Of a stretch of 64,000 nt of DNA, positions 3,716-57,752 are shown in pieces. The translations under genes were made by a program, and so were the position numbers. Positions within the stretch are counted from its first letter, which is position 1; each line of letters starts with the position of its first letter. The stretch lies in contig NC_088305.1 of the NCBI RefSeq assembly GCF_032854445.1, positions 25,021,400 to 25,085,399 of the forward strand. The letters are read 5' to 3'. Origin of the DNA: Liolophura sinensis. Lineage: Eukaryota; Mollusca; Polyplacophora; Chitonida; Chitonidae. The notes under the pieces are model-generated. The model searched no databases. It saw only the letters and a program-made list of their open reading frames with translations, and was not told the origin of the DNA.

Positions 3716-3829
3716 TGTCAAGACCTTCTGAGCTTTTCCCTGGTGTGAATGTCAAGCTCACGTCCGCTTCTTCATCATATTTATGCGCCTCCTGCACTTG
3801 TGCCCTCTTCAGCTAATGGGCATTCATGA

Positions 3830-4290
3830 TTTCATCCCAGAGTTTTCAGTTCCACCAAATGTCCACAGTTTTGGTTTCGTCATGTTAATTCAGATTTCAT
3901 CCAAGTGTTTACAGTTTCATCGAATACATATAGTTCTGGTTTTGCCATGTTAATCCTGATTTCACCCAAGTGTATACAGTATCATCAAATGTACGTAGTT
4001 CTGGTTTCGTCACGTTAATCCAGATTTCATCCAAGTGTTTACAGTTTCATCGAATACATATAGTTCTTGTTTTGCCATGTTAATCCTGATTTCATCCAAG
4101 TGTATACAGTATCATCAAATGTACGTAGTTCTGGTTTCGTCACGTTAATCCTGATTTCATCCAAGTGTTTACAGTTTCATCAAATGTACATACGTCTGGT
4201 TTTGCCATGTTAATCCTGATTTTATCTAAATATATACAGTATCATCAAATGTACATAGTTCTGGTTTCGTCACGTGAATCGTGGTATGTT
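3830..4290. repeat. 65-bp tandem repeat with 130-bp alternation, upstream of the receptor
   Basis: The anchor 'gttaat(c/t)' recurs at 3884, 3949, 4014, 4079 and 4144 and 4209 (diverged at 4274), exactly every 65 bases without indels. Two monomer types alternate: one with 'tttacagtttcatcgaatac', the other with 'tatacagtatcatcaaatgt'. About seven monomers are present. The array ends about 340 bases before the receptor ATG. Confidence 0.9.
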
Positions 4291-4626: not shown

Positions 4627-4805
4627 ATGACTTGTTCATTCTATACACACGGAGCTTATGTCTACTTTAGGTCAAATAATAGCCCGTTTTCGGGCTGGTT
4701 TGTCTGCCTCAGTTTGTCTTTTCTGGTCATCGCGCAGGCTGTTCAAGGTGTGGCCCCCACCCTAAACAACGCGGGATGTCACAGTACCGTATCAGTCTTA
4801 AAACT
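4627..4805 (+). CDS. Receptor exon 1: signal peptide and mature N-terminus
   Basis: The ATG at 4627 opens a 59-codon exon that ends in phase 2 at the donor ct|gtaagt (4806). Residues 24-41 (WFVCLSLSFLVIAQAVQG) form a hydrophobic signal core after an unusually long polar n-region of about 23 residues. Cleavage is probably near AVQG-VAP. No later Met is available before the core, so this start is required unless an upstream coding exon exists. The mature end carries one Cys (residue 51), which could be an early EMI cysteine. Confidence 0.75.
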
Positions 4806-7800
4806 GTAAGTATCAGTATCTACACGTATTGTTTGTTGATAAAATATCTACCGTATATATTTTATTCCATTTATGTTACCATTGTGAATGGGGGGAGCGG
4901 GATCAAGACATTTTTTCACTTTTTTCGATGAAGCCTGTCCTTTTTTCGATAGAGCCTGTAATTTAAATACTGAAGCAAAAAAGTACTAATACTTATATAC
5001 CCGACAAATTCTTCATGTGGAAAGCAAAACATAGGCGACGGTCGTAATGAAATAGACTATAGTCTATATTGTACCTTTGTGAGCAAAATAGATCTTCGGA
5101 CAGATACGCTAAGTGTCGAGAACTCGGAGTTTCTGTACAACGCTATCATTTATTTATTTATTTATTTATTTAAGCTGTATGAATATGTTATAGCCTATGT
5201 CTCACCTTAGCCCAGCCTGAGTAGCTCATCATACCGGTCCTAACCGCACAACTACTTTTTTCTTAGGAGCTACAAAACTAGTAATGCTAAACCTGATTTT
5301 ACATCACGAACTTAATGGTTGAAGTACATGTATAATGTCTTAGATGTGAAATTACTTCCAAGCTAAGTCATATTGGTCTGTTTACTAGAGGAACACATGC
5401 ATATACCTGGTTTAACAGTATTCATGTTTTTTGTCATAAAAAATTGAATTTTTGTAATTTTTTTTCCTTGTTGTTGATAAATGCTGCTATAAAACCAGGT
5501 GAAAAAGGTTAGCACATGTTTTTGACAATATATGTGGTGCTTTCGTTTTACGTTGTGCATCCTGGTACATTTTATGCGGGTGGCTCATCTTACTCCTCGG
5601 GTCAGCTTATCTCATTCTCCTCCATATGTAGTTTTGTTGAATAGTTAGCAAGCATCTACAGAAAAACGTATATTCGAAAGTTTTTTATGTGTACCCTTCA
5701 AATAGTTTTGCAATGGCAAGCTATGACCCATGAACCAAACAAAGTTAAAATCCACACGGTGTCGTCAAAGCACAAAAATCGGGCCAAACCAAAAACTAAA
5801 CGTGTTTGGAGAAACTCTGGCAGAAGGCTACAAAATAAGCTCATGATATCTTGTTAGTCTATGCTTAAACGTCTACTGTAAATACCGCAACTTTCTGTTT
5901 TTAATGAAAATGTAGCTCTGTTATTTTTTGTTTCTTCACGAAGAGTAAACGTTACCACAGCGGAAGCCGTGGTGAAGTCGTACAGCGTAAGGCAGTCCGT
6001 GTCGTGTGGACTATGGAGTCTAGGACGTTGTACCCGATACAGGTTAGGATAATAAGTTTTCACTGGTAGTAAAACTCGTATATCTGAATTCGTTATCCAA
6101 CGACATTCGAGAGATATGTCGTTATTCGGATCAGTCTGTTGTACATTGGTATAGGCCAGAGCATTTGTGCTCGTGACCTTTCTCTTATTTCTAAGGACAA
6201 CCTTTTCATATGGACCTTGGTGTATGAAATAAAGCGTTGTTATTGTTGTTTTTATTGTTGTTGTTATTATTATTATTATTATTATCATATTAATTTGTGG
6301 CGGTCTGTCTGTTTGCCTGGGCGTTTTCCATGCAAAACCGGCTCTATATATTTCCTGCTATTAAAATGTTATCTGCAGGTTCATTTTGTGTAAATTAACG
6401 TCTATCAAGTTCACAAACCAGTGTTTTAACTGCATAAACCAACATTTTAGTATTACAGGCAGAGGTGATAACCATCAGATTTATAAACCATTAGAAAATG
6501 TATCATGCTTATAGCGTTCTGCAATTCAGAATTTACCAGCTTTTATGTTAACCTGGTTACAAATGAAATGTTCCCATCTACGTATCTCTATCTTAACATC
6601 ACAACACTTTTTATTTACCTAATTCTGCCAAAGCCGTAGGGCTAGGGGCGTGTAACTTGCTACTATTTCAGCATTTACAAGCGCAATTAGAATAAAATCC
6701 TGACTGACATAGACTGATCGGAGGCCGTATTCCACAGGTTACGTGTGATCATTTGCCAGTTATCCCACTTTCGTTGCTGCTCTGGGTTTTCCCTCTATAC
6801 TGCCAGTCTTGTAATATATCAACCTTTGTTCACAGTCTACAGTACAGAATTGTTTACGAGACCAAACTGAGGCTGCGCACAGAGACTCACTACAGTAAGT
6901 CATGCTGTCCAGGCTGGAAGGGAGACAACTGTGATATAGGTAAGAGTTTTTTTTTTTTTTAAATATATCATTAACGTTTGTTTTGCTTTACGTCTAGTCT
7001 AGTTTCGGTCTTTAAACTAGATTTGTAACGTAGGTCTAGTTGGAAAGGTTAGGTGATTTAGTGCGCTCCCTCCGACACTACTATAATCCAAGCCTATAAT
7101 GATCGCTCCACTGAGATAACTCCCTTAGACAAGAGGAGATAACTGACAGGGTTCAGACATGATACTCCATACAGCATATAAATCATTATCTAAGCTCGGT
7201 TTACATCACTCCCACCACTAGACAGGCCTGACCTTTGGATCCCGCTCACGTGGGCTTATTTAGACTTAGCCTCATCACTGGTGTCTTCGCGCGGGACTGT
7301 TTAATAAGCACTCATCAACAAAATTATGTCAGGTGTTGGATATAATCGCGCGCACTTCAGATAAAGAGAATGTACGTGTGTTAAGTATAATTAGAAGCAA
7401 AGATTAAAACAAGATTTTCGTGATTCATGACATCATTTCCTGCCTCTTCGCCCTGAAACCAGTAATCTGGGAGTTGTTCAATATTTCTGTACAAAATTTG
7501 CTTGTACTGGCGGCACTTGATGTCAAAGGAATGTAGACATCAGAGCATGCCCTGTACAAGGAGTCTAGTCTGATAAAGTTTGACCAGAAAAACAAGCTGT
7601 GAATATGTACTTTGAAACCGATTTATGTAAAAGGATGTCAAATAGCAAAACGGTACATGTCTGATTCTCTTCCATTAACGTCCATGTTAAATTACCATGT
7701 TATTCTGTATAGTTTGCGGACGGGGTAAATTAGAACAGCCCTCAATATCCTGAAACAAGTGAATGTATGACTGTGGCTTATCGTCATATTATATAAATGT

Positions 7801-10800
7801 AGCAATATTAAAGCCATTTGTAGCGATCATATACGATACAAGGACAGTCTTGTTTCTTGTAAACATACACATAAAATTACTGCGTATTACTTCGGGACTA
7901 TTGTTAAATAATATATGGTTGATGTGGAGAAGTACTTTGTGGTCACTGGCGATGCAACGGCTCTAATGAGTATTCTTTATTGCAACATGTCCGAACAGGC
8001 CAAGATATTGTTTCTTTTGAAAACGAACATTGATACGCTCCATACGTGCTTAGTGTTCTTGGATATCGGTAACTTAGATGCTGATTCGCCCATATTGTTT
8101 GGCGTTTTTCTCTGAAACCCAGGTACAACGACATATGGGACAACAAAAACAACAACAACAACCACAACAATGCCACCAACAACAAGAACAACACCTCCAC
8201 GAACAACAAGAACAATACCACCAATACTGACAACAAGAACAGTACCACCAACACTAACAACAAGAACAGTACCACCAATACTAACAACAAGACCAACACA
8301 ACGGCAAACAACAGATATAAGAAGAACATCCCCGCTAACAACAACACCCATACAAACACTGCCAGCAAGTACAGTAGGTCCATGGCCGACACAAAGAACC
8401 ACGTCATCACTGCCCCTCCAAAACCTCATTCCCCTTGACCTGGACTCAAGCTGCAACAACTTCGACTTTGACTGATAAAGTAACAACGTGGACAACCTTG
8501 TCAACCTTCCAGTCATCTGAATCAACACCAACAACGCCTTCATCTGTTTGTGGCGTCGAGACACCGAAATCCCAGGTACTGTCACACGACCAAAATCTGC
8601 AGGCAGTTCCAGCCAACATAACCTTCGTTTGTCAAGTCCTGTTTTTTTACCACCGCGAAAAGCAACCGACGGAAATCGTCTGGCTGGTTAATGGTGTGCC
8701 TGTCACGACACTGTTCGAGGTGGACATCATGGAGGGCTTGGGAGAGAGCATAGCTGGAGAAAGAGTTAGAGGCATTCGAGTAATTTCCATCCTCACGGTT
8801 GTGAACGCTTCTGTCTGTATGGCAGGGGAGTATGTGTGCCAGGCCAGGGTGGGGCAGTGCAAACACAACAACAGTGTCTATCTGGGATGTCCTAAATTCC
8901 CCAGCTTTTCACATACACAGTATAACTTTGGAAACAGTAAGTAACTAATGTGTTTATTGTTTTTTGTTTTTTAAGCATGTCTGAGACGAGTTACTCAAAA
9001 GTGTATACCATAGGAGCCTAGCCAGGCATTAGCCTTTGTCTGATCCAAAGTCTCATTTGGTTTGCGGCACATGCGCAAAAGAAGGGGAATGGATCCCTTA
9101 AAAAATGCCAAGATCTGGACCATGACCAGTTTTAAGAACCACTCACTCCACCACCTTTTTCTCTCTACCCACCTCCCCAAATCCCACCAAAGAAAATAAA
9201 TAAATAATTTATTAGCTTCATTAAAAGCTACTTACCAAGAGTACACGTCACATGATTTAATCTGAGCGCAAATAATACTGGACAAACTGAATTTCAAACT
9301 AAGTCTGTTGATAAATAAACCTGTTAAACAATAAAGTTTGATGGCATAGCCAGGTTATTATCTCATTGGAAATAGTATGTACATAAATGTCATTTGTTCA
9401 TTTATTTTATTTATTTGATTGGTGTTTTACGCCGTACTCAAGAATATTTCACTTATACGACGGCGGCCAGCATTATGGTGGGCGGAAACCGGGCACAGCC
9501 CGGGGGAAACCCACGACCATCCGCAGGTTGCTGGCAGACCTTCCCACTTACGGCCGGAGAGGAAGCCAGCATGAGCTGGACTTGAACTCACAGCGACCGC
9601 ATTGGTGAGAGGCTCCTGGGTCATTACGCTGCGCTAGCGCGCTAACCGGCTGAGCCACGGAGGCCCCCTAATGTGTTTAGCAGACTGGTGTTTAATGTGG
9701 TACTAAAGATAATGTGGTACTAAAGATGATTTAGCACGCAAATACGTGTGTTTGTCTGTATGTCTGTATGTGTGTATGGCGGGATGAGGTTTATAGGTGG
9801 AAAAAACTGGATTGGTTAGCTTCCTCTGCGGCCGTGTGTGAGGCATGCAGCAACCTGCGGATGGTCGTGCGTTTCCCCCGGTCTATACCCGGGTTCCTCC
9901 CACCATACTGATGACCGCCGTCAAACAAGTGGAATATTCTTGAGTACGGCGTAAAACACCAATCAAGTAAATAAATAAATATACTAGACTGGTCGAAGTG
10001 AACTAACACGCTTAGCCTAGTCTAAATGACGATTTACAGCCATATAGCGTGGAAGATCTTTAGCGCTAGGCTTTGTAGGTGTGTATCTGTTTACTTTAAT
10101 CCGGGTCAAGGGGCTTGTATATGCAGTACGCAGTTTTCATATGACCGCTATATCCACAGTTAAATTGAAAGCCTTACGCAGATACCTTGTATACCCATTC
10201 TGGTTTTCGGCCTCCGTGGCAGAGAGGGTGAGCCTGCCAATCCGGCGAAATGACTCTGTAGCCTCTCACCAATGCTGCTACTGTGAGCCCACCTCATGCT
10301 GGCTTCCTCTCTGGTCGTACTTTGGAAGGCGGTGCTCTTTCAACGGGCTCAGTCCTGTTTCCTCCCATCATAATGGTGGCCTCCGTCGTATAAGTGAAAT
10401 ATTCCTGAATACGGCGTAAACCAATCAAATAAATAAATAAATAAAAAGCAGGATATTGGGAATATGATTTTGGTTAAATAGACACTGTAATAGCCAAACT
10501 TAATGTTCAAAGGATACATGAAAAGGTGTATAAAACGAGTATGGTTTTGAGATTGGGTCTTGGCCTCAGTCTCAGCTTGTCTACTACTCTTTGACGTACG
10601 TCACACGTTGGAAAGTTAGTTAGTTGCCGAAAGTTCGACGGTTTGCACAAGGCTCTTTGGTTTTCTTTGTATATAATTAAAAAAAAAAACAAAACAGAAT
10701 GATCAAGCTAATAAAATTTAAAACTCTCCACCAATGATGAACCGATACGCTCAATCTAAAAGTAACAAAACTAACTTAAGTCAATTTCTAGGAATAACAC

Positions 10801-13800
10801 TCAAAATATGCCGGGGTGTTTTTGAAGTACGATAGAACTGTAAACGTGTAATTCTTCGAAATCTGGAGAAATGAAAAAAAGGCATTGCTGTTTGCACACA
10901 ATATCATGTAAGACAGTTGAAAAAGCTTTGTTTTCGTCTTACCGCTTGCTTTGTCGGCGTGTCACTGCGAGATACCCCATGCACTGTTCTTTTACATCAG
11001 ACATGTAGTCAATGAAACTTTTTCAACTGTGAAAATCTCATTGGCTTCTGTTATATTTTCAGGTTGTTGCCCAGAGATAGTACCAGTGAAAATGCAATCG
11101 ATTCCCCTATCCACCCCAATCAATATTGCAGCTCCCGCTGTCCTGGCTGGTCTCTTGGCTCTTGTCGCGATAGTTTTGCCAATTGTCGTCTATAAACGCA
11201 GTCGCGCCATTCAAATTTGGTTCAAGTACTGGTTTGGAGCTTTTGAGGACGACGGTGAGATGTGGCTATATTTGTATCATTAAACTTTCGTTATGAACTC
11301 GTGTGACAGCTTGACCGCTTCGGTGGCCTAATGGTTAGAACGTGGAGGCAGCATAATATATGTAAACATGACTAATGCCTCCCCGTCATATAAAAATATT
11401 GTTAAGTACGACGTCAAACCCCAAGGATTCGTCCATTCATTCATTCATCTGATAGCTTAAGTATTTATTGATTTATCTTTTTATTCCATTTATTTAATTT
11501 TAATTTAGTTATTTATTCTATTTATTTAAAACGGTGTTTTGCGTCGTATTCAATACTGTTTTACTTATGTGACGGCAACCAGCATTATGGCAGAGCCCGG
11601 GAGAAACCCCTGACTAAACGCAAGTTGCTGGCAGATCTTTCCACGCCGAGCTTTAAGCTCCAAACGGAACATTAATGATTAAACAAACCAACAAATGAAA
11701 TTGGTGTCGCCATTATTATGCCGTGTGTTTTGTACTAATTAATGACTTCTCCATTATATAAATGCGCATAGCAGGGAAATTTTATTTCTGTCACTGACGT
11801 CTAATATATAGCCAGAACATGAATGCATTTCTTTATCTAATTCTGCTTAAGCCTTGGTGCTATGGGGATTTAAGTTGCTACTATTTAAGCATTTACATGA
11901 AATGTTGGAATAAAACCTTAACTGAGGTAAACTGACAAGCGGCTGTATTTCATCGGTTACGTTTGACCATTTACCAACTATCACACTCTATGCTGAAACT
12001 GTTTATATTAAAACTACATTGATATTAATTGTAAAGTTATACTTTTGATTAAAGATCAAAAATCTTGTCTACATTTCATATTTCATGTTATTTCAGATGG
12101 CAAATTGTACGACGTCTACGTATCCTTTGACATTGAGGACCAGACCGTTTTACGTTTTGTCCTGTGTAACATTCGGGAGTTTTTGCAACAAAATGACTAC
12201 ACGGCTTTCGTGTTTCCTGTGGACTCCCAGCCAGGGATGAGTAAGTACCGCTGACCACTACTCTTTATTTAACTTATATGCTTCCGTAGTCCTTTCATGG
12301 TTTGTACTGAACGTTGTTGTGGAAACGTTGTTGTCTTTCGATTATTGGTCGGGAAAGTCCATTTTGGTTGACGGCTGGTAAACGGTGTCTGCATGAATGC
12401 CTACACTATATAAACATCGGTGGCGGTGCAGAGGTTTCACGGATTCTAGAGAGTACAGCAAAGACACTACAGAATTAAAACGTAAACCATGAAGAAGTTA
12501 ATGTTTGCCTAACAGATACATGACTTTAACGATAATGGATACTGTACAGATGGCAAACAATCCTAACGTGTCGCTTTCTCAAGTGCCATAGTGAGGGGGT
12601 CTAATATCTCCATATCGGCAGCTTAATTCCATCCTTTAGGCCTTTCAGGTAAACATGGTATCTTTTGAGTGTTTAACATTACAAAGTCCCAGTTAACTTA
12701 ACACACCCATTCCTTATATGCTGTGCATCGTTATTCTAGGCACGGTTCCTAACGTCGACGGGGCTTAGCAAAACATCCACATAAATTAGATGGAGACCTG
12801 CGCAGCGAAAGGAACCTTACAAATGAAAGTTAATTGGGCACTAATGCAAATCACCAAACACAAGCGGTTTACACCCTTAACCGTAAGTCTAATGTACATG
12901 TGTACAATTACTTAACAAGGGAAATAACTCATGCCGTAGACCATGTATCTGATCGAATTTTTACCAGTTAGCCAAGAATATGTCACTAGCTAATTTCGGA
13001 TGCACCCCAGCTTGACCATAGTTCTCTTGAAAGAAAAAATTAGTATATTTCGTTACTAGATTGCATAGAAATGGTCATCGCGTTACTAGATTGCATACAA
13101 ATCGTCAATGCGTTACTAGATTGCATACAAATCGTCACCGCAAAGACAAGAATAGAAAACAGGCTACACAGCATAGGCCGGAATAGGGGAGTTTTGAGTT
13201 CGAACTCTTTCGTAGTAGAAGATAGAAAAAGTCCAACTGTATCATGTGACCTGTCAAAAATGTGAGGCAACTATTGTTGATCACCTTTACTATATTACGG
13301 CGTCTGAAAAGTGTAATAAAATCATTTAGAGTGCACTAATGGTAACAAAATTCAGGAATGGATTAAAGGAAAGAGGTATCTTTTGTGCGTATGGGAAAAG
13401 GTGAAAGACGTGATCAGTAAGTCATTTTCAAAAAAGGTTGCCTAACATTTTTCACCAGTCACATGGCACAGTCTGATTGATTTTACCTCTGACGACAAGA
13501 GATTTCCGAAACCCAAAGCTCCCCTACCACAAAAGAGGAAGGTTTAGCATAAATATTCCATGTAACTTGCGAACATGATGTCAGATACTTACTGAGGCGT
13601 TCGATCCCTTCCAAAAGTTAGTTTAAGTGCTTCAACTACACAGTGCATTCGACTGGCACGTTTGAAATTTTCTATTTGCATAAATTCAGATCAAGTCAAT
13701 GCATGCAGTACACTGAGGCGTTCGATCCCTTCCACAAATTAGTTTAAGTGCTTCAACTACACAGTGCATTCGATTGCCACGTTTGAAATTTTCTGTTTGC

Positions 13801-15040
13801 ATAAATTCAGATCAAGTCAATGCATGCAGTACACGAAGTGATAAAATTTATGAAGGCACTTATAAAAGAGCTTGTGAGATGTGCCCGTCTGTCTGAATCC
13901 GTCTGATCTGTCAGGCTATTTAGTAATCAACACACACCACTGTGAACGATGCAGTTTTTTTCTGATACTGGGTGTAGTTAGATAAGCTACATTTTGCGCT
14001 TTGTTCTTTGCACTTTGTTTATTCCATCCATCCACAATCCTGAAATGGAGTCATATCTGATATTTGTTACAGCGCAGTCGGCGTTCCCTCAGTTCGCTTT
14101 ACATCACTGCTACATTTTATACAGAAATTTCGAACAACCCTGAGGTCATGAGGCAGTCCGTGATGTCAGAAAACATAAAAACTCTCCACTTTTCGCTATA
14201 GTCATACTTTATAAACGTGCATTCTCTTCACCTAAAGTGTGCACAGTGACACAGTTTTATTAGTGAATGTTTATTATACAATTCCGCGCGAGTATATTAT
14301 TGTCTTCCGGTAGCAGTGATGTTAAGCGAGCGCAGAGAGCGACATATATGCTTTAAGGGGTATGGCCATGTCTAAGACTTTAAAATCGGGAATCTTTTTA
14401 CTATCTAACTTTTTACTCATCATAAGAGAAATAAGCGAATAACTAGTCGGTCTGGTTTCAGGATAGTGTGATTGGGTGCGGTGTCATGTCTGGTGTCATG
14501 ACATGGCATTCCAATGATGTAGCACTGTAAAAATGTTGGTAGTGGGTCAGGCAAAGACAAATAGTTTTGTTTACGTACATCTTACCATGAGTATCATATT
14601 TGTCGCTAATTTGTTAATTGTCGGTTTTGTTTTGTTTGTATTTGTTTTGTTTTGTTTTTTTACCATTCATAGGCAAGTCTGACAATATAGTAGAAGCCAT
14701 GAATCAGTGCCGACGAGTGATGGTCATTTTTAGCCAGAGTTATCGTTCTTGTGAGTGGTGCCGCTTTGAATTCCTAACAGCTCAAAGACTGTTCATTGGC
14801 GAACGTTTGAAGATTATACCTGTTCTTCTTGGAGAAACCAACAAACGTATTTTAAAAGACGACGATTTTTCAACTGTGCTGAAATTTATCCCATCCATCC
14901 ACATGTCTACAGACTGTGAAAGTCCACTTTCACCCTCAGCATCGAAACAGTTAAAACTGCGCATGCCCAGAAAACGAAGAAAAGAAGCATGCCGTAGGAG
15001 CTGCAGTATGGAGCTACGAACTTGTAGGTTGCAGTCATAA
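4627..15040 (+). CDS. EMI-like/Thr-rich/Ig/TM/TIR receptor gene, six exons (IL-1R/SIGIRR-like)
   Basis: Six coding exons join with matching phases: 4627-4805, 6836-6939, 8123-8936, 11063-11254, 12097-12240 and 14673-15040. All introns begin GT and end AG. Allowing for one frameshift in exon 3, the product is about 599 residues: signal peptide (about 1-41), EMI-like C-terminal half (about 51-94), Thr/Pro-rich stalk (about 96-235), one Ig domain (about 237-350), a transmembrane helix (385-409) followed by KRSR, and a TIR domain (about 433-560). Seen: box 1 YDVYVSF, a box-2-like DSQPG, CEWCRFEF, and a preceding DGKLYD. Known: Ig-TM-TIR is the architecture of IL-1 receptors and SIGIRR, which act at the plasma membrane in innate immune signalling through TIR-TIR contacts. 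Inferred: a single-Ig IL-1R-like sensor or adaptor with an added EMI/mucin ectodomain. The ligand is unknown. An internal exon between exons 1 and 2, completing the EMI domain, may have been missed. Confidence 0.87.
5150..5173. repeat. TTTA microsatellite
   Basis: Six tandem TTTA units in receptor intron 1. Confidence 0.9.
5180..6830. other. Receptor intron 1: no further exon found
   Basis: The EMI-like domain looks incomplete, so I searched for an exon with phase 2 at both ends. No stretch combined a good acceptor, a donor and cysteine-rich coding. Only microsatellites and AT-rich sequence are evident. Confidence 0.4.
6238..6286. repeat. TTG/TTA triplet microsatellite
   Basis: Tandem TTG and TTA triplets in receptor intron 1. 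The minus-strand open frame over it is low-complexity by-product. Confidence 0.9.
6836..6939 (+). CDS. Receptor exon 2: EMI-like C-terminal half
   Basis: The acceptor ttgttcacag|tctac and donor ag|gtaagag bound a 104-nt exon, phase 2 in and phase 1 out. It encodes a basic and aromatic stretch (YRIVYETKLRLRTETHY) ending in SCCPGWKGDNCDI. The CCPGW-G--C ending preceded by a YR-VYR-type strand is the hallmark of the C-terminal part of EMI domains (emilins, MEGF10-type proteins). The upstream half with its other cysteines is not evident. A 14-base T run lies just inside intron 2. Confidence 0.8.
8123..8936 (+). CDS. Receptor exon 3: Thr-rich stalk and Ig domain (frame break inside)
   Basis: The acceptor ctctgaaacccag|gt joins in phase 1. 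From 8125 to about 8400 the frame encodes a Thr/Pro/Arg stalk (TTRTTPPRTTR and variants), suited to dense O-glycosylation. That frame stops at 8475. The Thr-rich sequence resumes in the next frame from about 8400 (TWTQAATTSTLTD) and runs into an Ig domain: B-strand Cys in ITFVC (about residue 264), core Trp in VWLVNG (281) and F-strand Cys in AGEYVC (333), with ISILTVVNAS between. Extra cysteines lie at about 237, 326, 340 and 350. N-glycosylation sequons are NIT, NAS and NNS. The donor aca|gtaagt at 8937 gives phase 1. The break needs one base fewer (or two more), as expected from a sequencing error, a polymorphism or a real disabling mutation. Confidence 0.82.
8400..8475 (+). other. Reading-frame break in receptor exon 3
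   Basis: Threonine-rich coding sequence switches from the frame starting at 8125 (TGA at 8473-8475) to the frame containing 8435 (Ig domain). Both sides are Thr-rich, so translation should cross here. C and A runs at 8412-8424 and 8431-8434 are plausible sites for a one-base insertion error. No convincing short intron of the right length is visible. Confidence 0.75.
8973..9383 (-). repeat. Dispersed repeat, copy 2 of an inverted pair (receptor intron 3)
   Basis: Reverse complement of about 836-1220. About 35 extra bases at 9070-9105 are absent from copy 1. It lies just inside intron 3 of the receptor and is followed by a SINE. Confidence 0.85.
9400..9667 (-). mobile_element. tRNA-derived SINE, minus strand, full length
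   Basis: Complete copy in receptor intron 3. In its own orientation it has a head 'ggggcctccgtggctcagcc' (pol III A-box-like TGGCTCAG), a B-box-like 'gagttcaagtcc', a conserved body and a tail 'gagtacggcgtaaaacacca' plus AAATAAAT repeats. About 267 bp. Confidence 0.95.
9819..9981 (+). mobile_element. SINE, plus strand, 5'-truncated
   Basis: Begins in the family body ('cttcctctgcggccgt') and ends with 'gagtacggcgtaaaacacca' and an AATA tail. The tRNA head is missing. Confidence 0.88.
10209..10446 (+). mobile_element. SINE, plus strand, diverged
   Basis: Starts 'gcctccgtggcagagagggt', has the body words 'atgctggcttcctct' and 'cctcccatcataatggtggc', and ends in an AATAAATA tail. Several indels mark it as older than the other copies. 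Confidence 0.88.
11063..11254 (+). CDS. Receptor exon 4: stem, transmembrane helix, juxtamembrane
   Basis: The acceptor ttatattttcag|gttg and donor gacg|gtgaga bound a phase 1-1 exon of 192 nt. It encodes a short stem starting with two cysteines (SCCPEIVPV), a helix of about 24 residues (APAVLAGLLALVAIVLPIVV), a stop-transfer YKRSR, and an aromatic juxtamembrane stretch (WFKYWFG). A W/Y-rich segment here is typical of IL-1R-family juxtamembranes. This predicts a type I membrane protein. Confidence 0.85.
11318..11445 (+). mobile_element. Possible second SINE family (tRNA-like head)
   Basis: The head 'cggtggcctaatggttagaa' resembles a tRNA A-box region. The 3' part 'attgttaagtacgacgtcaa' followed by CATT repeats resembles a SINE tail different from the main family. 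Confidence 0.45.
11520..11648 (-). mobile_element. SINE fragment, minus strand, degraded
   Basis: 'acggtgttttgcgtcgtatt', 'cagcattatgg' and 'caagttgctggcagatcttt' are diverged reverse-strand matches to the main SINE. The head is absent. Confidence 0.75.
12097..12240 (+). CDS. Receptor exon 5: first half of TIR domain
   Basis: The acceptor gttatttcag|atgg and donor atga|gtaagt bound a phase 1-1 exon of 144 nt. It encodes (D)GKLYDVYVSF (TIR box 1, preceded by the DGK-YD signature of IL-1R/SIGIRR-type TIRs), helix alpha-A (VLRFVLCNIREFL), and a strand ending FVFPVDSQPGM, the box 2/BB-loop region. The usual basic residue before the box 2 Asp is replaced (PVD rather than RD), which may change BB-loop contacts. 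Confidence 0.85.
   Translation: MANCTTSTYPLTLRTRPFYVLSCVTFGSFCNKMTTRLSCFLWTPSQG
13051..13140. repeat. Three perfect-length 30-bp tandem repeats
   Basis: 'cgttactagattgcatacaa' starts at 13051, 13081 and 13111, exactly 30 bases apart with 2-5 substitutions. Lies in receptor intron 5. Confidence 0.95.
13591..13833. repeat. 121-bp tandem duplication
   Basis: 'actgaggcgttcgatccctt' starts at 13591 and again at 13712. The two units differ at only a few bases over 121 bp, so the duplication is recent. Receptor intron 5. Confidence 0.95.
14673..15040 (+). CDS. Receptor exon 6: second half of TIR domain and C-tail
   Basis: The acceptor taccattcatag|gcaag joins in phase 1 and makes SKSDNIVEAM. The exon continues with CRRVMVIFSQSY and CEWCRFEF, strongly conserved TIR core elements, then KIIPVLL. 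The box 3 FW pair expected near the end of a TIR is not seen; DFSTVLKFIPSIH occupies that place. The C-tail is Ser-rich and then strongly basic (RMPRKRRKEACRR), stopping at TAA 15038-15040. Confidence 0.85.
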
Positions 15041-23286: not shown

Positions 23287-23492
23287 ACCCTAATATAACC
23301 TTAAGTCTTATGTGTGTCTATGAAACATGTGTCCAAAACATTCTTCACCAAAGTACGCCAAGTGAAATTTGAGGTCGGAGGCATGTCCCTAAGCGAACTA
23401 TGTAAAACTGTGACGGATCGGGGCAAAACGTCGTTGTTTCGCACCATTATTTGTGCTATAAATCCTCTGCACTCATTTCTGCATGGCCCCTG

Positions 23493-24160
23493 TGTTACCT
23501 GACCCATAATACGTCATGTTACCTGACCCATAATACGTCATGTTACCTGACGCATAATACGTTGTGTTACCTGACCCATAATACGTCGTGTTACCTGACC
23601 CACAATACGTTGTGTTACCTCACCCATAATACGTCGTGTTACCTGACTCATAATACGTTGTGTTACCCGACCCATAATACGTCGTGTTACCTGACCCACA
23701 ATACGTTGTGTTACCTCACCCATAATACGTCGTGTTACCTGACTCATAATACGTTGTGTTACCCGACCCATAATACGTCGTGTTACCTAACCCATAATAC
23801 GTCGTTTTACCTAACCCATAATCCGTTGTGTTACCTGACCCATAATACGTTGTGTTACCTGACCCATAATACGTTGTGTTACCTGACCCATAATACGTCG
23901 TTTTACCTAACCCATAATCCGTTGTGTTACCTGACCCATAATACGTTGTGTTACCTGACCCATAATACGTTGTGTTACCTGACCCATAATACGTCGTTTT
24001 ACCTAACCCATAATCCGTTGTGTTACCTGACCCATAATACGTTGTGTTACCTGACCCATAATACGTTGTGTTATCTGACCCACAATACGTCGTGTTACCC
24101 GAACCATAATGCGTTTTTTTACTTGACTTATAATACGTTGTGTTACCTGACTCATAATGC
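23493..24160. repeat. 24-bp minisatellite, about 28 copies (copy A)
   Basis: Unit 'gttacctgacccataatacg' plus 'tcat' or variants, 24 bases. Because 24 is a multiple of three, an open frame (CYLTHNTS repeated) spans it; this is not taken as a gene. Confidence 0.95.
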
Positions 24161-24169
24161 CATTTGTGG

Positions 24170-25490
24170 CCTTTCTCACTAAATATAATTCCTATTTCCT
24201 TTTAACACATTTTGTTTTTCTGTCTCACATCAGAATACTGTCTATGGAAAGTATCCATTGAAAGGCGTTCCTGTTAGTAGCCCAGACATATGTAGGTAAG
24301 GCTCTCAACTTACACCAACTAGCAATAAACATTTACAGTAAACATTTCAGGTGACTGATGTCGTTTTCTGCTTGCCAAAGGAATGACTTTTGCGTGGTAT
24401 GTGGGATATCTCATAACAAGAATACTGTTCTTACAACTTGTGGCCACCACATGACTCATCAAAGTGAGGAAAGTACCATTTGTGGCCCGATCGGCCACAT
24501 TTGGCGGCTACTTTTCAAATGGCACCTTTCTCTGGCTTATCTGTCATGATTCTGTAGTTTGAGATGAAACATAAATATAGTGACTCATATCTTCAATCCA
24601 GTTAAAGAATATATCAAAAGATAGGGTTTTTTTCGTTTGCGATGTTTGATCGGAATACATGTTAAGAAGGGATAAAGCTATTTTCCAAAAATATCGCCAC
24701 TGGCGTCCTTGAAAAGCAAAACTTTTCGTATAAAGCATTATGTATTTTTGTGAACATGTTTTTCTCTTTTCGATAGAAAACTCAAATGATTTAGTTTGTG
24801 CGTTTCTACTGCTGTATAAAGAAAATTTCATGTTCTACTGTAATACATAAAAGGTATTCCACGGATCTCTCAAGCATTACTTTTATACTGGTTTGTTATT
24901 AAATTTACTCCTCTGCTTATAGAACTGTGGCCAGTCGTAACAAAACGTCGCGATTTGTGCGTGGTTCACTGCGGGATAAGACTCATTCACGCATTGGATA
25001 GTTGTATTTCACAGGAGGTCTCAATTGCCGTCAGATAAACCCAGGTTCCGGTTTGCAGTTGTACGGAACGTTAGGACCATCCATCCAAAACCTAGTCAAT
25101 ATCGTTTTCGAGGATTAATTATTTGTTTCCGATGCTACATGACAATCGTTATTAATGTCACAAGAGATTCTTATGTCATTTATCAAAACGGTCTTTATGT
25201 GGCCATATTTATTGTGACGTCTCCGTGAATTATTATGTGGAGGACAGCAGACATGACGCAGATATGACATCCTATTCCGCAGTACATCCGTGTCATAACG
25301 ACCAGGTAACTTTAATCAATCAATCAGTCAAATATGCATACGTGATTTTATGTATCAATCAATTTCCGGTCCAAACAACGGCCGTTAAATGCAACCTACA
25401 ATATAAAGAAATATATGTTTTAGTTGAAATAGATTGCCAATAAATAAAAGCTCTTTGCTGACATCCTAGGTTTTACAAATGTAGTAATTA
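24170..25490. other. Non-repetitive part of copy A without a recognised gene
   Basis: Conserved in copy B (37590-38900). Short open frames only; the two copies translate differently after indels (for example after 24,420), which argues against coding there. Confidence 0.4.
25020..25120 (+). other. Weak exon-like stretch shared by both copies
   Basis: After a tatttcacag acceptor, about 33 codons read GLNCRQINPGSGLQLYGTLG to VNIVFED and a stop. The same frame is open in copy B (38398-38497). No family is recognised, and it may be chance. Confidence 0.2.
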
Positions 25491-25499
25491 CTGTCAGAC

Positions 25500-28418
25500 A
25501 GCAGTGATCAGCTTACTGCTGATATAGAGTGATAATTACTGCTGACAGGCTGACAATTACTGCGGATGGGTTGACAATTTTTTGCGGATGGGTTGACAAT
25601 TACGGGTGATAAAGAATGACAATTACTGCTGATAGGGTGAAAATTACTGCTGATAACGTGACAATTACTGCTGACAGAGTAATAATTACTGCTGGTAGGC
25701 GAACAGTGATTGCTGATTGGGTGACAGTTACCGGCAATAGGGTGCCATTTACTTATGTAACTGATTCGTGTATTTAACCGTACTGAAGAATATTTCACTT
25801 ATGCAACAGAGGACAGCATGGTGGTGGGAGGGAACCGGGCAGAATCCGAGAGAAACCCACGTTTCACTCATACGAGGAAGATCAGCAGACCTTCCCTACG
25901 GCCTGAGAGGAAATCAGCATGAAATCAGCAAACTCACAGCGAGGTGACTTTTACTGCTGATAGAGTGACAATGAATGCTGATACAGTGACAATTACTGGT
26001 GATAGGGTGACAGTTACTGGTGATATGGTGACAGGTACGGGTGATAAGGTGACAATTATCGATAAAACGGTGATAATTACTGGTGATAGGGTGACAATTA
26101 CTGCTGACAGGGTGACAGTTACTGGTGATATGGTGACAGGTACGGGTGATAAGGTGACAATTATCGATAAAACGGTGATAATTACTGGTGACAGAGTGAC
26201 AATTACTGCTGACTGGGTGACCGTTACAGGTGATAGGGTGGCAGTTAGGGTGATAGGTGATAATTATTGTTGATAGGGTGACAATTAGCGCTGACAGGGT
26301 GACAGTTACAGCTGATAGGGTGGCAGTTACGGGTGATAAGGTGACAATTATTGGTGATAGGGTGACAATTACTGGTGAAAGGTTTACAATTACTGGTGAT
26401 ATAGTGACAGGTACAGGTGATAAGGTGACAATTATCGATAATACGGTGATAATTACTGGTGACAGAGTGACAATTACTGCTGACTGGGTGACCGTTACTG
26501 GTGATAGGGTGACAGTTACTGGTAATAGGGTGACATGTACTGGTGGTAGAGTGACAATCACTGCTGACAGGGTGACAGTTACAGGTGATAGGGTGGCAGT
26601 TACGGGTGATAAGGTGACAATTATTGGTGATAGGGTGACAATTACTCTTGACAGGGTGACAGTTACAAGTGATAAGTGACAGTTACTGGTGATAGGATGA
26701 CAGATACTGGTAATACGGTGATAATTACTGGTGATAGGGTGACAGTTACTGGTGATAGGTGGCAATTACTGGTGATAGGATGACAGATACTGGTGATAGG
26801 GTGACAGTTACTGGTAATAAGGTGACATGTATTGGTGATAGAGTGACAGGGTGGCAGTTACAGATGATAGGGTAGCAGTCAGGGTGATAGGTTACAATTA
26901 TTGGTGATAGGGTGACAGGTACAGGCGAAAGGGTGACAATTATTGGTAATAGGGTGACAGTTACTGGTGATATGATGACAGATACTGGTGATAGGGTGGC
27001 AGGTACAGGTGAGAGGGTGACAATTACTGGTAATAGCGGGAAAGCTACAGGTAATAGGGTGACAGTTACTGGTGATAGGTTGAAAATTACTGGTGATATG
27101 GTGACAATTATCGGTAATCGGGTGGCAGTTACTGGTAATACGGTGATAATTACTGGTGATAGAGTGACAATTACTGTTGACAGGGTGACAGTTACAGCTG
27201 ATAGGTGACAATTACTGGTGATAGGATGACAGATACTGGTAATACGTTGATAATTACTGGTGGTAGGGTGACAGATACTGGTGATAGGTTGACAATTACT
27301 GGTGATAGGATGACAGATACTAGAGATAGGGTGGCAGTTACTGATAATAGGGTGACATGTACTGATGGTAAAGTGACAATTTCTGCTGACTGGGTGATAG
27401 TTACAGGTAATAGGGTGGCAGTTAGGGTGATAGGAGACAATTATTGATGATAGGGTGACAGTTACTGGTGATAGGGTGACCGTTACAGGTGATAGGGTTG
27501 CAGTTAGGGTGATAGGTGACAATTATAGGTGATAGGTTGACAATTACTCCAGACAGGGTGACAGTTACAAGTGATAGGTGACAATTATTGGTGATAGGAT
27601 GACGGATATTGGTAATACGGTGATAATTACTGGTGTTAGGGTGACAGTTACTGGTAAGAGGGTGACAATTACTGGTGATAGGATAATATGTACTGGTGAA
27701 AGAGTGACAGTTACTGGTAATAAGGTGACAGGTGCAGGTGATAGGGTAACAGTTACCGATAATAGGTAACTGGTCATAGGGGGATAGTTACTGCTGATAT
27801 AGAATGACAATTACTCCCGACTGGTGAAAATTACTGCTGATAAAGTTAAAGTTACTGTTGATAGAGTAAAAATTACTGGCCATAGGGTGACAGTTACTGG
27901 TCATAAGGTGATAGTTATGGCTGATAGGGTGATAGTTACTCGTGATAGGGTGATAATTACTGGTGATATGGTGATTGTTACTGGTGATGAGGTGACAATT
28001 ACTGGTGATAGAGTGACAGTTACTGATCATGAGGTGATAGTTATGGCTGATAGGGTGATAGTTACTCGTGATAGGGTGATAATTACTGGTGATAGGTTGA
28101 CAGGTACTGGTGATAGGGTGACAATTACTGCTGATATGGTGATAGTTACTGGTGATGAGGTGACAATTACTGGTGATAGAGTGACAGTTACTGGTCATGA
28201 GGTGATAGTTATGGCTGATAGGGTAATACTTCTCGTGATAGGGTGATAATTACTGGTGATAGGTTGACAAGTACAGGTAATAAGGTGATAATTACTGCTG
28301 ATATGGTGATAGTTACGGGTGATGAGGTGACAATTATTGCTGATATGGTGATAGTTACTGGTGATGAGGTGACAATTACTGGTGAAATAGTGACAGTTAC
28401 TGGTCATAAGGTGATAGT
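25500..28418. repeat. 21-bp minisatellite, about 2.9 kb (copy A)
   Basis: Unit 'acaattactggtgatagggt' plus 'g', 21 bases, with drifted variants and an old SINE near 25.8-25.9 kb. Long frames on both strands (TITGDRV and its reverse) arise because 21 is a multiple of three. Confidence 0.95.
25777..25941 (-). mobile_element. Degraded SINE inside the 21-bp minisatellite (copy A)
   Basis: 'gaagaatatttcacttatgc', 'ggacagcatggtggtgggag' and 'cagcagaccttcc' are reverse-strand SINE words. It splits the minisatellite. The counterpart is 39200-39371. Confidence 0.75.
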
Positions 28419-31887: not shown

Positions 31888-32642
31888 CTGACGGTTCCAA
31901 GAATGATGATGGCGTGGCTTCTGCCGCTGTCCTTGGGCCCAGAACCATTTCAACTCGGTTTCCAAATTCCTGTTCTGTATTTACCGCGGAAGCCAAGGCC
32001 TGGAATCCCTGGGAATACTGCTGCAGATGAAGCCGCGAAGGCGGGCTTTGCATTCCGTTACTACCCAAACTGACGTTCCATATTCGGACTTGCGTTCACT
32101 TATTTGCTCCTATCTCAAGCGCTTGTTTCAGGCTCAATGGGATGACCAGACAACCAACAAACTGCATGATATTCGTCAGTTTGTTGGTCCAGCGCCTTCC
32201 CTTTCACGGCATCGTCTCCGTTCTTGCATTTTGAGGAGGTGTCGTATCGGTCACACACGTGCTACGCATGGGTATTTGTTGAAAGGAGAAGATGCTCCTC
32301 ATTGCTTTGCTTGTGATCAACGGTTCACAGTCAAGCACATATTGCTTGACTGTGGCGACTTTGCTCCTGTACGAGATTCCTTTTTATCACGTGAGCTCTC
32401 TTTCAGAACTTTTCAATTCTGTAGAAAGTGATACTATTTTTGATTTTCTCTCTACCATTGGTATGGCAGGAAAGCTGTGATTTTAAACTACCGTCTGTGT
32501 TTGTTATGTGACTTCTGGTGTCCTTTTTTGACTGAATAGTAAATGAATTATCCGTAGTAGATCGACTACTTGACGTTTTATTGTCGCGATAAAACTGAAA
32601 TATTGTTAAAAGCGACGTTAAAACTTTCACTCACTCACTCAC
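31888..32642 (+). mobile_element. LINE 3' fragment with RNase H end and zinc-knuckle-like C-terminus (only in copy A)
   Basis: A 755-bp insertion flanked by 'tcactataaaatctc' (31873-31887 and 32643-32657). It encodes GIPGNTAADEAAKA, the end of a LINE RNase H domain, then after a frame change a C-terminal domain with CFACDQRFTVKHILLDC (C-x2-C...H...C). This is typical of I/Jockey-type non-LTR elements. 5'-truncated, with a CACT-repeat tail. Copy B has the empty site at about 45,375-45,385. Confidence 0.92.
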
Positions 32643-34757: not shown

Positions 34758-35028
34758 TGAAAATTCTAAGTAAAATTCGATTTGCTAAATTTTCACAATT
34801 AAGATGTAGATGAAAGTATTACCATTCCCATGAATCTGCCAGTCACCGAGAGCATTTTGCTTTAGCACCTTCTCGAAAGTTTACAGAGAATCTTAATCTT
34901 AAATCTTGGTAACTGATTCTGTCAGAGATTCAGCATATGAAGGCATCTATACTGATAAATTTGACAAGAGTAGATGTCAAGCCAGTAAAATTCTCCTGGA
35001 AATATGGAAGCGATAGCACAGGAATATT

Positions 35029-35228
35029 NNNNNNNNNNNNNNNNNNNNNNNNNNNNNNNNNNNNNNNNNNNNNNNNNNNNNNNNNNNNNNNNNNNNNNNN
35101 NNNNNNNNNNNNNNNNNNNNNNNNNNNNNNNNNNNNNNNNNNNNNNNNNNNNNNNNNNNNNNNNNNNNNNNNNNNNNNNNNNNNNNNNNNNNNNNNNNNN
35201 NNNNNNNNNNNNNNNNNNNNNNNNNNNN
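35029..35228. other. Assembly gap, exactly 200 N
   Basis: A run of exactly 200 N is a conventional scaffold join of unknown true size. Both sides begin or end the duplicated locus. Confidence 0.99.
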
Positions 35229-35371
35229 ACCCTTATATAGAGCCTCGAGTAATGAGGTCACGGCGTTGTTCACGCAAGGCGCCCCTTGCCGAGCAAAGGG
35301 CATCTTGTAGAAAATCGCTTTTCACAGCGCACTTACTAGTGAGCAGAGCAGTGTAACGTCTTTCACCTGTG

Positions 35372-38904: not shown

Positions 38905-41835
38905 AGTGATCAGCTTACTGCTGATATAGAGTGATAATTACTGCTGATATAGAGTGATAATTACTGCTGACAGGCTGACAATTACTGCGGATGGGTTGAC
39001 AATTTTTTGCGGATGGGTTGAGAATTACTGGTGATGGAGAATGACAATTACTGCTGGTAGGCGAACAGTTATTGCTGATAACGTGACAATTACTGCTGAC
39101 AGAGTAATAATTACTGCTGGTAGGCGGACAGTTATTGCTGATAGGGTGACAGTTACCGGCAATAGGGTGGCATTTACTTATGTAACTGATTCGTGTATTT
39201 AACCGTACTGAAGAATATTTCACTTATGCAACAGAGGACAGCATGGTGGTGGCAGGGAACCGGGCAGAATCCGAGAGAAACCCACGTTTCACTCATACGA
39301 GGAAGATCAGCAGACCTTCCCACCTACGGCCTGAGAGGAAATCTGCATGAAATCAGCAAATTCACAGCGAGGTGACTTTTACTGCTGATAGAGTGACAAT
39401 GAATGCTGATACAGTGACAATTACTGGTGATAGGGTGACAATTACTGCTGACAGGGTGACAGTTACAGCTGATAGGTGACAATTACTGGTGATAGGGTGA
39501 TAATTACTGGTGATAGGGTGACAGTTACTGGTGATAGGTTTACAATTACTGGTGATATGGTGACAGGTACAGGTGATAAGGTGACAATTATCGATAATAC
39601 GGTGATAATTACTGGTGACAGAGTGACAATTACTGCTGACTGGGTGACCGTTACAGGTGATAGGGTGGCAGTTAGGGTGATAGGTGATAATTATTGATGA
39701 TAGGGTGACAATTACTGCTGACAGGGTGACAGTTATAGCTGATAGTTGACAATTATTGGTGATAGGGTGACAATTATCGGTAATAGGGTAACAATTACTG
39801 CTAACAGGGTGACGGTTACAGGTGACAGGGTGGCAGTTAGGGTGATAGGTGGCAATTGTTGGTGAAAGGGTGACAGTTACTAGTAATACGGCGATAATTA
39901 TTGGTGATAGTGTGACAGTCACTGGTGATAGGTTGACAATTACTGGTGATAGGATGACAGATACTGGTGATAGGGTGACAATTACAGGTAAAAGGGTGAC
40001 ATGTACTGGTGGTAGAGTGAAAATTACTGCTGACAGGGTGACAGTTACAGGTGATAAGGTGACAATTATTGGTGATAGGGTGACAATTACTGCTGACAGG
40101 GTGACAGTTACAAGTGATAGGTGACAATTACTGGTGATAGGATGACAGATACTGGTGATAGGGTGACAGTTACTGGTAATAAGGTGACATGTATTGGTGA
40201 TAGAGTGACATTGTGGCAGTTACAGATGATAGGGTAGCAGTTAGGGTGATAGGTGACAATTATTGGTGATAGGGTGACAGGTACAGGCGATAGGGTGACA
40301 ATTATTGTTAACAGGGTGACAGTTACTGGTGATAGGGTGGCAGGTACAGGTGAGAGGGTGACAATTACTGGTAATAGCGGGAAAGCTACAGGTAATAGGG
40401 TGACAGTTACTGGTGATAGGTTGACAATTACTGGTGATATGGTGACAATTATCGGTAATCGGGTGGCAGTTACTGGTAATACGGTGATAATTACTGGTGA
40501 TAGAGTGACAATTACTGTTGACAAGGTGACAGTTACAGCTGATAGGGTGGCATTTAGGGTGATAGGTGATAATTATTGGTGATAGGGTGACAATTACTGC
40601 TGACAGGGTGACAGTTACAGGTAATAGGTGACAATTACTGGTGATAGCATGACAGATACTGGTAATACGTTGATAATTACTGGTGATAGGGTGACAGTTA
40701 CTGGTGATAGGTTGACAATTACTGGTGATAGGATGACAGATACTAGAGATAGGATGGCAGTTACTGGTAATAGGGTGACATGTACTGATGGTAGAGTGAT
40801 AATTACTGCTGACTGGGTGATAGTTACAGGTAATAGGGTGGCAGTTAGGGTGATAGGAGACAATTATTGATGATAGGGTGACAGTTACTGGTGATAGGAT
40901 GACCGTTACAGGTGATAGGGTTGCAGTTAGGGTGATAGGTGACAATTATTGGTGATAGGTTGACAATTACTCCAGACAGGGTGACAGTTACAAGTGATAG
41001 GTGACAATTATTGGTGGTAGGATGACGGATATTGGTAATATGGTGATAATTACTGGTGTTAGGGTGACAGTTACTGGTAAGAGGGTGACAATTACTGGTG
41101 ATAGGATAATATGTACAGGTGAAAGAGTGACAGTTACTGGTAATAAGGTGACAGGTGTAGGTGATAGGGTAACAGTTACCGATAATAGGTAACTGGTGAT
41201 AGGGGGATAGTTACTGCTGATATAGAATGACAATTACTCCTGACTGGTGAAAATTACTGCTGATAAAGTTAAAGTTACTGCTGATAGAGTAATAATTACT
41301 AGCCATATAGTGACAGTTACTGGTCATAGGGTGATAGTTATGGCTGATAGGGTGATAGTTACCCGTGATAGGGTGATAATTACTGGGGATAGGTTGAAAA
41401 GTACAGGTGATAGGGTGACAATTACTGCTGATATGGTGATAGTTACTGCTGATGAGGTGACAATTACTGCTGATAGAGTGATAGTTACTGGTCATGAGGT
41501 GATAGTTATGGCTGATAGGGTGATAGTTCTCGTGATAGGGTGATAATTACTGGTGATAGGTTGACAGGTACAGGTAATAAGGTGATAATTACTGCTGATA
41601 TGGTGATAGTTACTGGTGATGAGGTGACAATTACTGGTGAAAGAGTGACAGTTACTGATGATAGGGTGATAATTTCTGGCCATAGGGTTCCTGGTTATAA
41701 CGTGGTAGTTACTGCTGATAGGGTGACAGTTACTGGTGAAAGGGTCACAGTTACTGACGATAGGGTCATAATTACTTTTGATAGGGTGACCATTACTGTT
41801 GATAGGGTGACCATTTCCTATGGCAGGATGACAAT
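38905..41835. repeat. 21-bp minisatellite, about 2.9 kb (copy B)
   Basis: Same array. Beyond about 41,690 it continues into units that, in copy A, lie inverted at 31,090-31,275. Confidence 0.95.
39200..39371 (-). mobile_element. Degraded SINE inside the 21-bp minisatellite (copy B)
   Basis: Counterpart of 25777-25941. Confidence 0.75.
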
Positions 41836-42238
41836 TGCTGCTAATATATATGGAGAAAACCGGAGTGTTCGGAGGAAGCCACAGCCTTCTGTCGGGAACC
41901 TCATCGAAAAGAGCTGATGACTAAAGCCTCGACTAAACCACCACGAGCTGGGTTCGAACCTGGCACCTCGTTGGTTGGTCCAAATATGCATTATATGTAC
42001 TCATTTACCGATAGGTCATACTAATGACCCAGTGTTAAGAGAAATTAATTTTACAAACACCAGTTTGTAAACCTTGGAAAATGGCAATCCACAAAGATTA
42101 TGATTAATAAAACATTATTCATTAAAACAATAAATTTAATGTGCTTTGTTATTGAGAACAAAATGTCAGGTGAGCACTACACGAATATCATTTCCGGTCG
42201 CTAATAATGGATAACAAGCCTGGGTTGTTGCTTATTAA

Positions 42239-42315
42239 TTAGTACGAATTGCCTCCATCGCTGCTGTCGCTATCATCGCAGCCACACCCATCACCATTGT
42301 CGCCCTCCCCAGGGT
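42239..42315 (-). CDS. Secreted-protein exon 4, acidic tail (copy B)
   Basis: Acceptor tcatccttttcag|accc; phase 1 gives DPGEGDNGDGCGCDDSDSSD and then GGNSY and a stop. A simple acidic tail. An alternative frame without stops exists, but the phase favours this one. Confidence 0.5.
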
Positions 42316-56935: not shown

Positions 56936-57149
56936 AAAGAGATATTCAACAACACGCTTAATGTGGCTGGTAACGACCCCTCCCCCCTTCCTCGTGTACA
57001 TATACACATAACTGAAGAAATATCCACACGTCGCATAAAAATCGATCATTTTCTGCTGCTTGGAAAACAATTTAGACAACCTAAATGGATGTGCAAATTC
57101 TTTTATTTTATTATATATTGTTTTATATTATTGACAGTACTCTACTTAT

Positions 57150-57690: not shown

Positions 57691-57710
57691 TGGCTATATT
57701 CTAGACTTTC

Positions 57711-57752
57711 TGTCCGGTTTTTGTCCACCATGATGCTGACCACCATCATAGC
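57711..57752 (+). mobile_element. Possible small SINE fragment
   Basis: 'tgtccggtttttgtccacca' and 'tgatgctgaccaccatcat' resemble the body 'cggtttcctcccaccataatgc'. Short and uncertain. Confidence 0.4.

Follow-up and report, generated by a model that had tools for sequence, protein, structure and literature searches.

Does a chiton gene join an EMI domain to the extracellular immunoglobulin (Ig), single transmembrane (TM) and intracellular TIR layout of the IL-1R family, and what kind of receptor would such a gene encode? The question is raised by a gene in a 64,000-nucleotide stretch of the Liolophura genome (C11:25021400-25085399, here the window), a species whose name was revised by its authors from Liolophura japonica to L. 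sinensis (PMC12441733). We call the gene in the window copy A and the other copies of its cluster B and C. With confidence slightly above even, we regard the locus as a member of a small chiton gene cluster encoding a single-pass receptor with an EMI domain, a stalk, an Ig domain and an IL-1R-like TIR, which would be likelier a regulator or co-receptor.

Exon structure and the duplicated cluster

The coding region of copy A runs from a start codon at 4627 to a stop codon ending at 15040 and consists of seven exons (Table 1). The original prediction, made from the letters of the sequence, had counted six; it had overlooked the seventh exon, a frame break in exon 4 and the loss of the box-2 Arg and box-3 Phe-Trp from the TIR (see below). 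Its description of the exons as phase-matched holds at all junctions, which have GT-AG ends and matching phases (2, 2, 1, 1, 1, 1), and fails inside exon 4, where the stalk and Ig frames differ. The predicted order of signal peptide, EMI, stalk, Ig, TM and TIR was borne out by Pfam matches and hydropathy and by an intact second copy, B. Of the three domains for which a HMMER comparison with Pfam had been proposed, EMI scored over the cut-off, TIR was matched and Ig_3 stayed under its cut-off. The EMI match exceeded the cut-off in both copies (5.4e-7 in the spliced N-terminal part of A, 4.3e-6 in B); exon 3 by itself gave 1.1e-4 and exon 2 by itself gave no Pfam match. The TIR match was 4.4e-15 in the spliced C-terminal part of A and 1.7e-14 in B (4.9e-8 for exon 7 by itself), and the Ig_3 match was 3.1e-4 on the Ig segment of A alone, 0.003-0.004 in longer pieces and 0.0027 in B. 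The Ig segment has a Cys-Trp-Cys pattern by eye, with one Ig match in B. Searches of the PDB returned weak Ig-like matches only for the Ig region (titin, 0.008) and no relative for the EMI region (best E 1.2). Hydrophobic peaks in B lie at residues 25-43, the signal peptide, and 416-434, the TM helix (hydropathy 2.78). Together, the Pfam TIR match, the sub-cut-off Ig_3 match and the TM peak give the IL-1R-family layout. The stalk of B comprises 143 amino acids (52 Thr, 18 Pro and 13 Ser) and is probably O-glycosylated. A Pfam scan of copy B gave no EGF match (E 0.05) and no match to leucine-rich repeats (LRRs).

Table 1. Coding exons and frame break of copy A (positions in the window).
Feature	Position	Strand	Content	Borders and length	Identity in B
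Exon 1	4627-4805	+	Start codon, signal peptide, pre-EMI residues	GT donor, ends in phase 2	94.4%
Exon 2	5944-6042	+	First part of EMI (CGLWSLGRCTRY)	AG/GT sites and phase	99%
Exon 3	6836-6939	+	End of EMI with CCPGWKGDNC	Phase 2 to 1	98% over 102 of 104 bases
Exon 4	8123-8936	+	Thr/Pro-rich stalk, then one Ig domain	814 nucleotides in A, 789 (open) in B	
Frame break	8400-8475	+	Stalk frame, ending in a stop at about 8475, overlaps the open Ig frame		
Exon 5	11063-11254	+	CC motif, TM helix, juxtamembrane segment	Symmetrical, phase 1-1	
Exon 6	12097-12240	+	First part of TIR, DGKLYDVYVSF to the box-2 place PVDSQPGM	Phase 1-1	
Exon 7	14673-15040	+	Remainder of TIR (WCRFE, IIPVLL, LRMPRKRR), short tail	Stop codon	96.7%

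Genome searches with the TIR and EMI regions revealed a cluster on C11 that spans about 150 kb and holds one intact copy, one frame-broken copy and one decayed copy, plus fragments. The sequence searched comprised 609,464,459 bases in 632 contigs; the published chiton assembly, based on 14X HiFi coverage, has 609,495,693 bases in 632 scaffolds, the longest of 96,433,062, with an N50 of 37,343,639 (PMC11068029). Copy B (L001; C11:24892103-24901328, minus strand) is an inverted duplicate about 125,000 bases from A and is 93-99% identical to it exon by exon. It has seven exons with splice sites as in A and a complete protein of 624 amino acids, and it is the intact reference that fixes the architecture. 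In copy C (L002), exons 2, 3 and 6 and part of exon 4 survive, with order and strand unchanged and with stops within Ig and TIR; the 9.9 kb examined of this locus did not reveal exon 1, the stalk, exon 5 or exon 7. Two further loci, L003 and L004, carry exon-7 fragments. When the Ig and TM regions were used as the query over the genome, only A, B and C were matched (six matches from nine candidates, E up to 0.1). Downstream of B (L004/L001, C11:24886770-24892031), the duplicated block breaks off for about 2 kb; where it starts again, a repeated piece of some 300 base pairs (bp) holds part of exon 7. A 65/130-bp tandem repeat occupies window positions 3827-4280, immediately before exon 1; the end of this repeat and the stretch upstream of it also adjoin the exon-7 fragment in L003.

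The intact duplicate B supports the putative linkage of the EMI and TIR exons in a single gene. We consider it very improbable that two neighbouring genes, one for a secreted EMI protein and the other for an Ig-TIR receptor, have been wrongly joined. Such a join would be compatible with a linkage read from genome sequence alone, but the six junctions are phase-compatible, the junction of exon 3 with exon 4 is kept in both A and B, copy C has its remaining exons in the same order and on the same strand, and exons 1-3 end without a stop. Furthermore, the gene family and its pattern are more than chance, since B keeps seven exons, splice sites and a full frame, and silent changes between the copies outnumber amino-acid changes from the Ig domain onwards.

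Copy A is without one continuous reading frame. The homologous exon in B is a single open exon without a break. Removal of a 202-nucleotide segment with GT and AG ends (8374-8575, + strand) would preserve the frame in A; an intron at this place was rejected, since B is open through the homologous stretch and the segment reads as Thr/Ser-rich stalk, and it is probably stalk coding sequence and not a true intron. The ratio of nonsynonymous to synonymous change (dN/dS) was calculated from the codons of A versus B, with the stalk left out. It was 0.084 in the TIR (12 silent and 4 other changes), 0.145 from the Ig domain to the end (17 silent and 9 other) and 0.229 over all measured codons, with Fisher p values on rounded counts of 4e-6, 2e-6 and 6e-6, respectively. 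On these counts, the region from Ig to TIR looks to have been constrained in both copies for most of the time since duplication. Copy A may have been broken recently, or it may be a defective allele or reflect a sequencing or assembly error: silent changes dominate from Ig to TIR, so the break would be recent, allelic or an error, and a base error is possible because the assembly rests on 14X HiFi. It is also possible, though we rate it below even, that copy A is a pseudogene, that the cluster is decaying and that at most B is functional. The frame break in A, the stops and unfound exons of copy C and the exon-7 fragments all fit decay; against it stand a dN/dS well below 1 from Ig to the end, the splice sites kept in A and the chance of a base error at 14X coverage (PMC11068029).

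Relationships of the TIR domain

We searched the chiton genome with the PF01582 profile and obtained 109 TIR matches from 120 candidates. About 70 of the 109 lie inside open frames of at least 600 amino acids, without the intron split seen in the window gene. The chiton set is probably a large expansion of Toll-type genes, a label inferred from the TIR type and the open-frame length. The matches are often clustered, on C4, C10, C11, C12 and C13, and at two places on C6 (46414548-46415333 and 46402511-46403341) two TIR matches share one open frame (1148 and 1180 amino acids), possibly encoding tandem-TIR proteins.

When the TIR of the window gene was searched against the PDB using phmmer, SIGIRR (7fcj) was the best match (2.2e-10, 43.6 bits; query residues 8-156, reaching the MPRK end), followed by Roq1 (1.3e-5), TLR2 (2.6e-5), IL1RAP (0.0021) and MyD88 (0.004). 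With the C-terminal piece of SIGIRR as the query, no other IL-1R member was found. The closest of the fetched chiton TIRs outside the cluster was that of the Toll-type gene L010, which at 47.0 bits (phmmer) stood above the 43.6 of SIGIRR, the two values coming from separate searches; in the genome TIR search, too, L010 headed the rows from outside the cluster. The difference between the IL-1R and Toll profile scores was -26.8 for B, -27.2 for a chiton EGF-TIR protein, -16.8 for a left-out SIGIRR, -32.6 for MyD88 and -28.8 for the chiton row L052, and it was below -70 in 35 of 42 chiton rows.

This EGF-TIR protein is encoded on C7 (35014700-35035230; L062, L061 and L038) and has a signal peptide, EGF-like repeats, a TM helix and a TIR (Pfam EGF 0.0027, under the cut-off; TIR 2.9e-20). 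A phase-1 intron within the D of DGK precedes its TIR, which is split by a second phase-1 intron in the second codon past the box-2 PG; both introns have the identical place and phase in the window gene. In vertebrate IL1RAP, the border of exons 11 and 12 falls just after box 2. Vertebrate IL1RAP also swaps exon 12 for 12b inside the TIR (PMC3705552).

For phylogenetic analysis, 56 TIR regions were fetched and 14 were dropped by eye (incomplete, disrupted, highly divergent or of a different type), leaving 42; L038 was among the 14, its spliced form serving as the EGF-TIR row. Tree 1 was built from 43 rows, with MyD88 included and seven more chiton rows and copy A dropped, and tree 2 from 32 rows after ten further chiton rows and MyD88 had been dropped. 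Naming the L-INS-i alignment explicitly returned the same tree and likelihood difference as tree 2, the alignment being the same and thus not independent. In tree 1, the window TIR fell in a seven-row group with EGF-TIR, MyD88 and four IL-1R-family rows (support 93/97). In tree 2, it was grouped with EGF-TIR and the four IL-1R-family TIRs (89/89, not starred), and its nearest row was the chiton EGF-TIR (86/57, not starred). A forced pairing with SIGIRR in tree 2 was not rejected (p 0.146).

The tree pair bears on another explanation, namely that the gene is a divergent EGF-TIR offshoot whose EGF ectodomain was swapped for EMI, stalk and Ig via phase-1 borders, and which does not belong to the vertebrate IL-1R branch in particular. 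We hold this as a tentative possibility, short of even. In addition to the pair itself, the identical TIR introns and phases and the similar juxtamembrane ED.DGKL(F/Y)D of the two proteins point to it. However, the pair is not starred, and the two TIRs are only 28% identical (25% in the second half, E 0.002). Moreover, the C7 TIR has retained boxes 2 and 3, and L010 (47%) is the chiton match that comes closest to it outside its own gene; its PDB matches to a TLR15/TLR2 chain (3.3e-17), IL1RAP (1e-16) and IL1RAPL1 (3.9e-16) are about equally good.

Motif loss and putative signalling role

In TIRs of the IL-1R family, box 2 reads RDxxPG and box 3 FW, and both sites matter for IL-1R1 signalling. 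The window family has (P)VDSQPG at box 2 and (S)ASKQLKLRMP at box 3, and by eye the box-2 Arg and the box-3 Phe-Trp are absent. It keeps the TIR fold core, WC..E and the box-2 PG, and its tail after the TIR is about 20 amino acids. Of the 43 other chiton TIR rows, simple patterns detected box 2 in 39 and box 3 in 36, some of the box-3 misses coming from trimmed rows, and L040 is the only one of these rows without both. L040 (C11:24571592-24571894) is a divergent TIR in an open frame of 673 amino acids, about 450 kb from the window gene. The SIGIRR of PDB entry 7fcj likewise lacks an Arg at box 2; its box-3 FW is present. SIGIRR, which has two changed residues and a 95-amino-acid tail, interferes through its TIR with the recruitment of MyD88 and IRAK (PMC3705552, PMC8861086).

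Because the box-2 Arg and box-3 Phe-Trp are missing, the protein is more likely a regulator or co-receptor than a receptor that activates signalling autonomously. An EMI domain of the Draper/MEGF10/NimA-like kind, together with the Ig ectodomain, would contact a matrix, cell-surface or microbial ligand, and the TIR would dock onto other TIR proteins (Toll, EGF-TIR, MyD88). Without both motifs, it may tune or block the pathway in the fashion of SIGIRR, or act as a co-receptor, rather than firing alone. The alternative is an activating pattern- or damage-sensing receptor, in which a ligand of EMI and Ig clusters the TIRs and signals through MyD88 to NF-kB, as in TLRs. The fold core, WC..E and box-2 PG that were kept, and the 12 silent against 4 other changes in the TIR, would suit such a receptor; we nevertheless think it somewhat unlikely, with the box-2 Arg and box-3 Phe-Trp gone while so many other chiton rows keep these patterns. 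More specifically for a regulator, exon shuffling via phase-1 borders may have joined a Draper/Nimrod-type EMI domain and an Ig domain to an IL-1R-like TIR whose activating motifs have been lost, giving an independently evolved, SIGIRR-like molluscan brake that would link the recognition of matrix or corpses to Toll/IL-1 signalling. We regard this scenario as unlikely.

A number of results weigh against reading the locus as an IL-1R-like receptor with EMI and Ig domains and a regulatory role. In the ectodomain, every Ig_3 match was under the curated Pfam cut-off, an AlphaFold model of the Ig segment from the single sequence had a mean predicted local distance difference test score (pLDDT) of 31.7, and exons 1-3, which hold the EMI domain, had a dN/dS of 0.535 (5 silent and 9 other changes), that is, no clear constraint. 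For the TIR, a search of the chiton genome with the SIGIRR of 7fcj found long-frame TIRs first (9.6e-8) and exon 7 of the window gene 45th of 83 (7.2e-5), a ranking that counts against a special tie to SIGIRR, even though exon splitting puts the window gene at a disadvantage in such a search. Copy B scored 71.4 bits with the Toll profile versus 44.6 with the IL-1R profile. The window TIR sat on a very long branch (1.94 and 2.59 changes per column in two trees). Tree 1 joined the window TIR to MyD88 (95/81, flagged as long-branch), as did a rerun containing MyD88 (86/79), and when the EGF-TIR row was left out, support for the group with IL-1R rows dropped to 75/50. In approximately unbiased (AU) tests, pairing with the Toll-type L010 was not rejected in tree 2 (p 0.181), nor without EGF-TIR (p 0.318) or with MyD88 (p 0.126). 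The regulatory role, deduced from the missing motifs, is putative. Finally, the genome searches for the family cover one species, the chiton Liolophura.

The window TIR is very divergent, and the comparisons lend moderate support to an IL-1R/SIGIRR affinity. The original prediction had proposed this affinity. The top PDB match to SIGIRR, the 89/89 group and the DGK motif speak for it, and the L010 pairing and the long branch do not. The motif itself was confirmed: DGK-x-(Y/F)D is present in A and B and, besides these, only in the EGF-TIR row (0 of 42 other chiton TIR rows). In the proposed phylogeny, the TIR was grouped with those of the IL-1R family, while its nearest row, the chiton EGF-TIR, is an outcome that had been named in advance as contrary, here with weak support. 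The receptor would work like a TIR receptor of the IL-1R type; strict membership of the IL-1R family is the weaker claim.

Much of the remaining window is filled by minisatellite arrays (23491-28414, 39371-45822, 55314-61861 and 63342-64000), and the long open frames in them are repeat artefacts. An open frame at 34913-35356 has a run of N inside, and one of 173 amino acids at 31910-32431 looks by eye like the end of a non-LTR retrotransposon, with no Pfam match.

Comparison with known systems

The roles and ligands of many molluscan TIR proteins are poorly understood. The EMI domain is common to NimA, PEAR1 and MEGF10 and is required for the adhesion of NimA in S2 cells (PMC13076899). Given this part in adhesion, and its presence in the clearance receptor MEGF10, a receptor carrying both EMI and TIR would couple Toll/IL-1-type signalling to adhesion or clearance. 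In addition, the cluster shows members of such a receptor family both arising and decaying. The TIR intron borders shared with the EGF-TIR gene point to a way, open to testing, in which a TIR cassette may gain new ectodomains. The combination of EMI, stalk, Ig and TIR appears to be undescribed: none of the 5.39 million papers searched, which mostly exclude subscription papers, contained both 'EMI domain' and 'TIR domain', and adding 'mollus' likewise returned none.

Among known proteins, the Ig-TIR or IL-1R-like proteins of Nematostella, sea urchin and molluscs have the Ig-TM-TIR layout in common with the window family (PMC1896004, PMC2575513, PMC4346834). In the excerpted text, no EMI domain is described for Ig-TIR proteins elsewhere, and those of Nematostella have two or three Ig domains (PMC1896004). 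IG-TIR and EGF-TIR are categories in surveys of oyster and Aplysia, the latter with two EGF-TIR genes (PMC4346834, PMC9334734). SIGIRR (IL-1R8) has one Ig domain, a TM helix and a TIR, as the window family does, but ends in the 95-amino-acid tail (PMC3705552) where the window family has the short one, and the window family has an EMI domain and a mucin-like stalk in addition. The chiton EGF-TIR protein on C7 resembles the window family in its single TM helix, in DGK-L-(F/Y)D at box 1 and in the two TIR introns; it differs in having EGF-like repeats, RDFPPG at box 2 and FW at box 3, whereas the window family has EMI, stalk and Ig and has lost the motifs. Toll and TLR proteins share the TIR; the window family has no LRR match and its TIR is split by an intron. 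The EMI domain of Nimrod, Draper, MEGF10 and PEAR1 carries a CC-P-G-W/Y motif and, as in the window family, lies on the N-terminal side. In the Nimrod/Draper/MEGF proteins it is followed by NIM or EGF repeats, whereas the window family has a Thr-rich stalk with no EGF match and a TIR in place of their tail.

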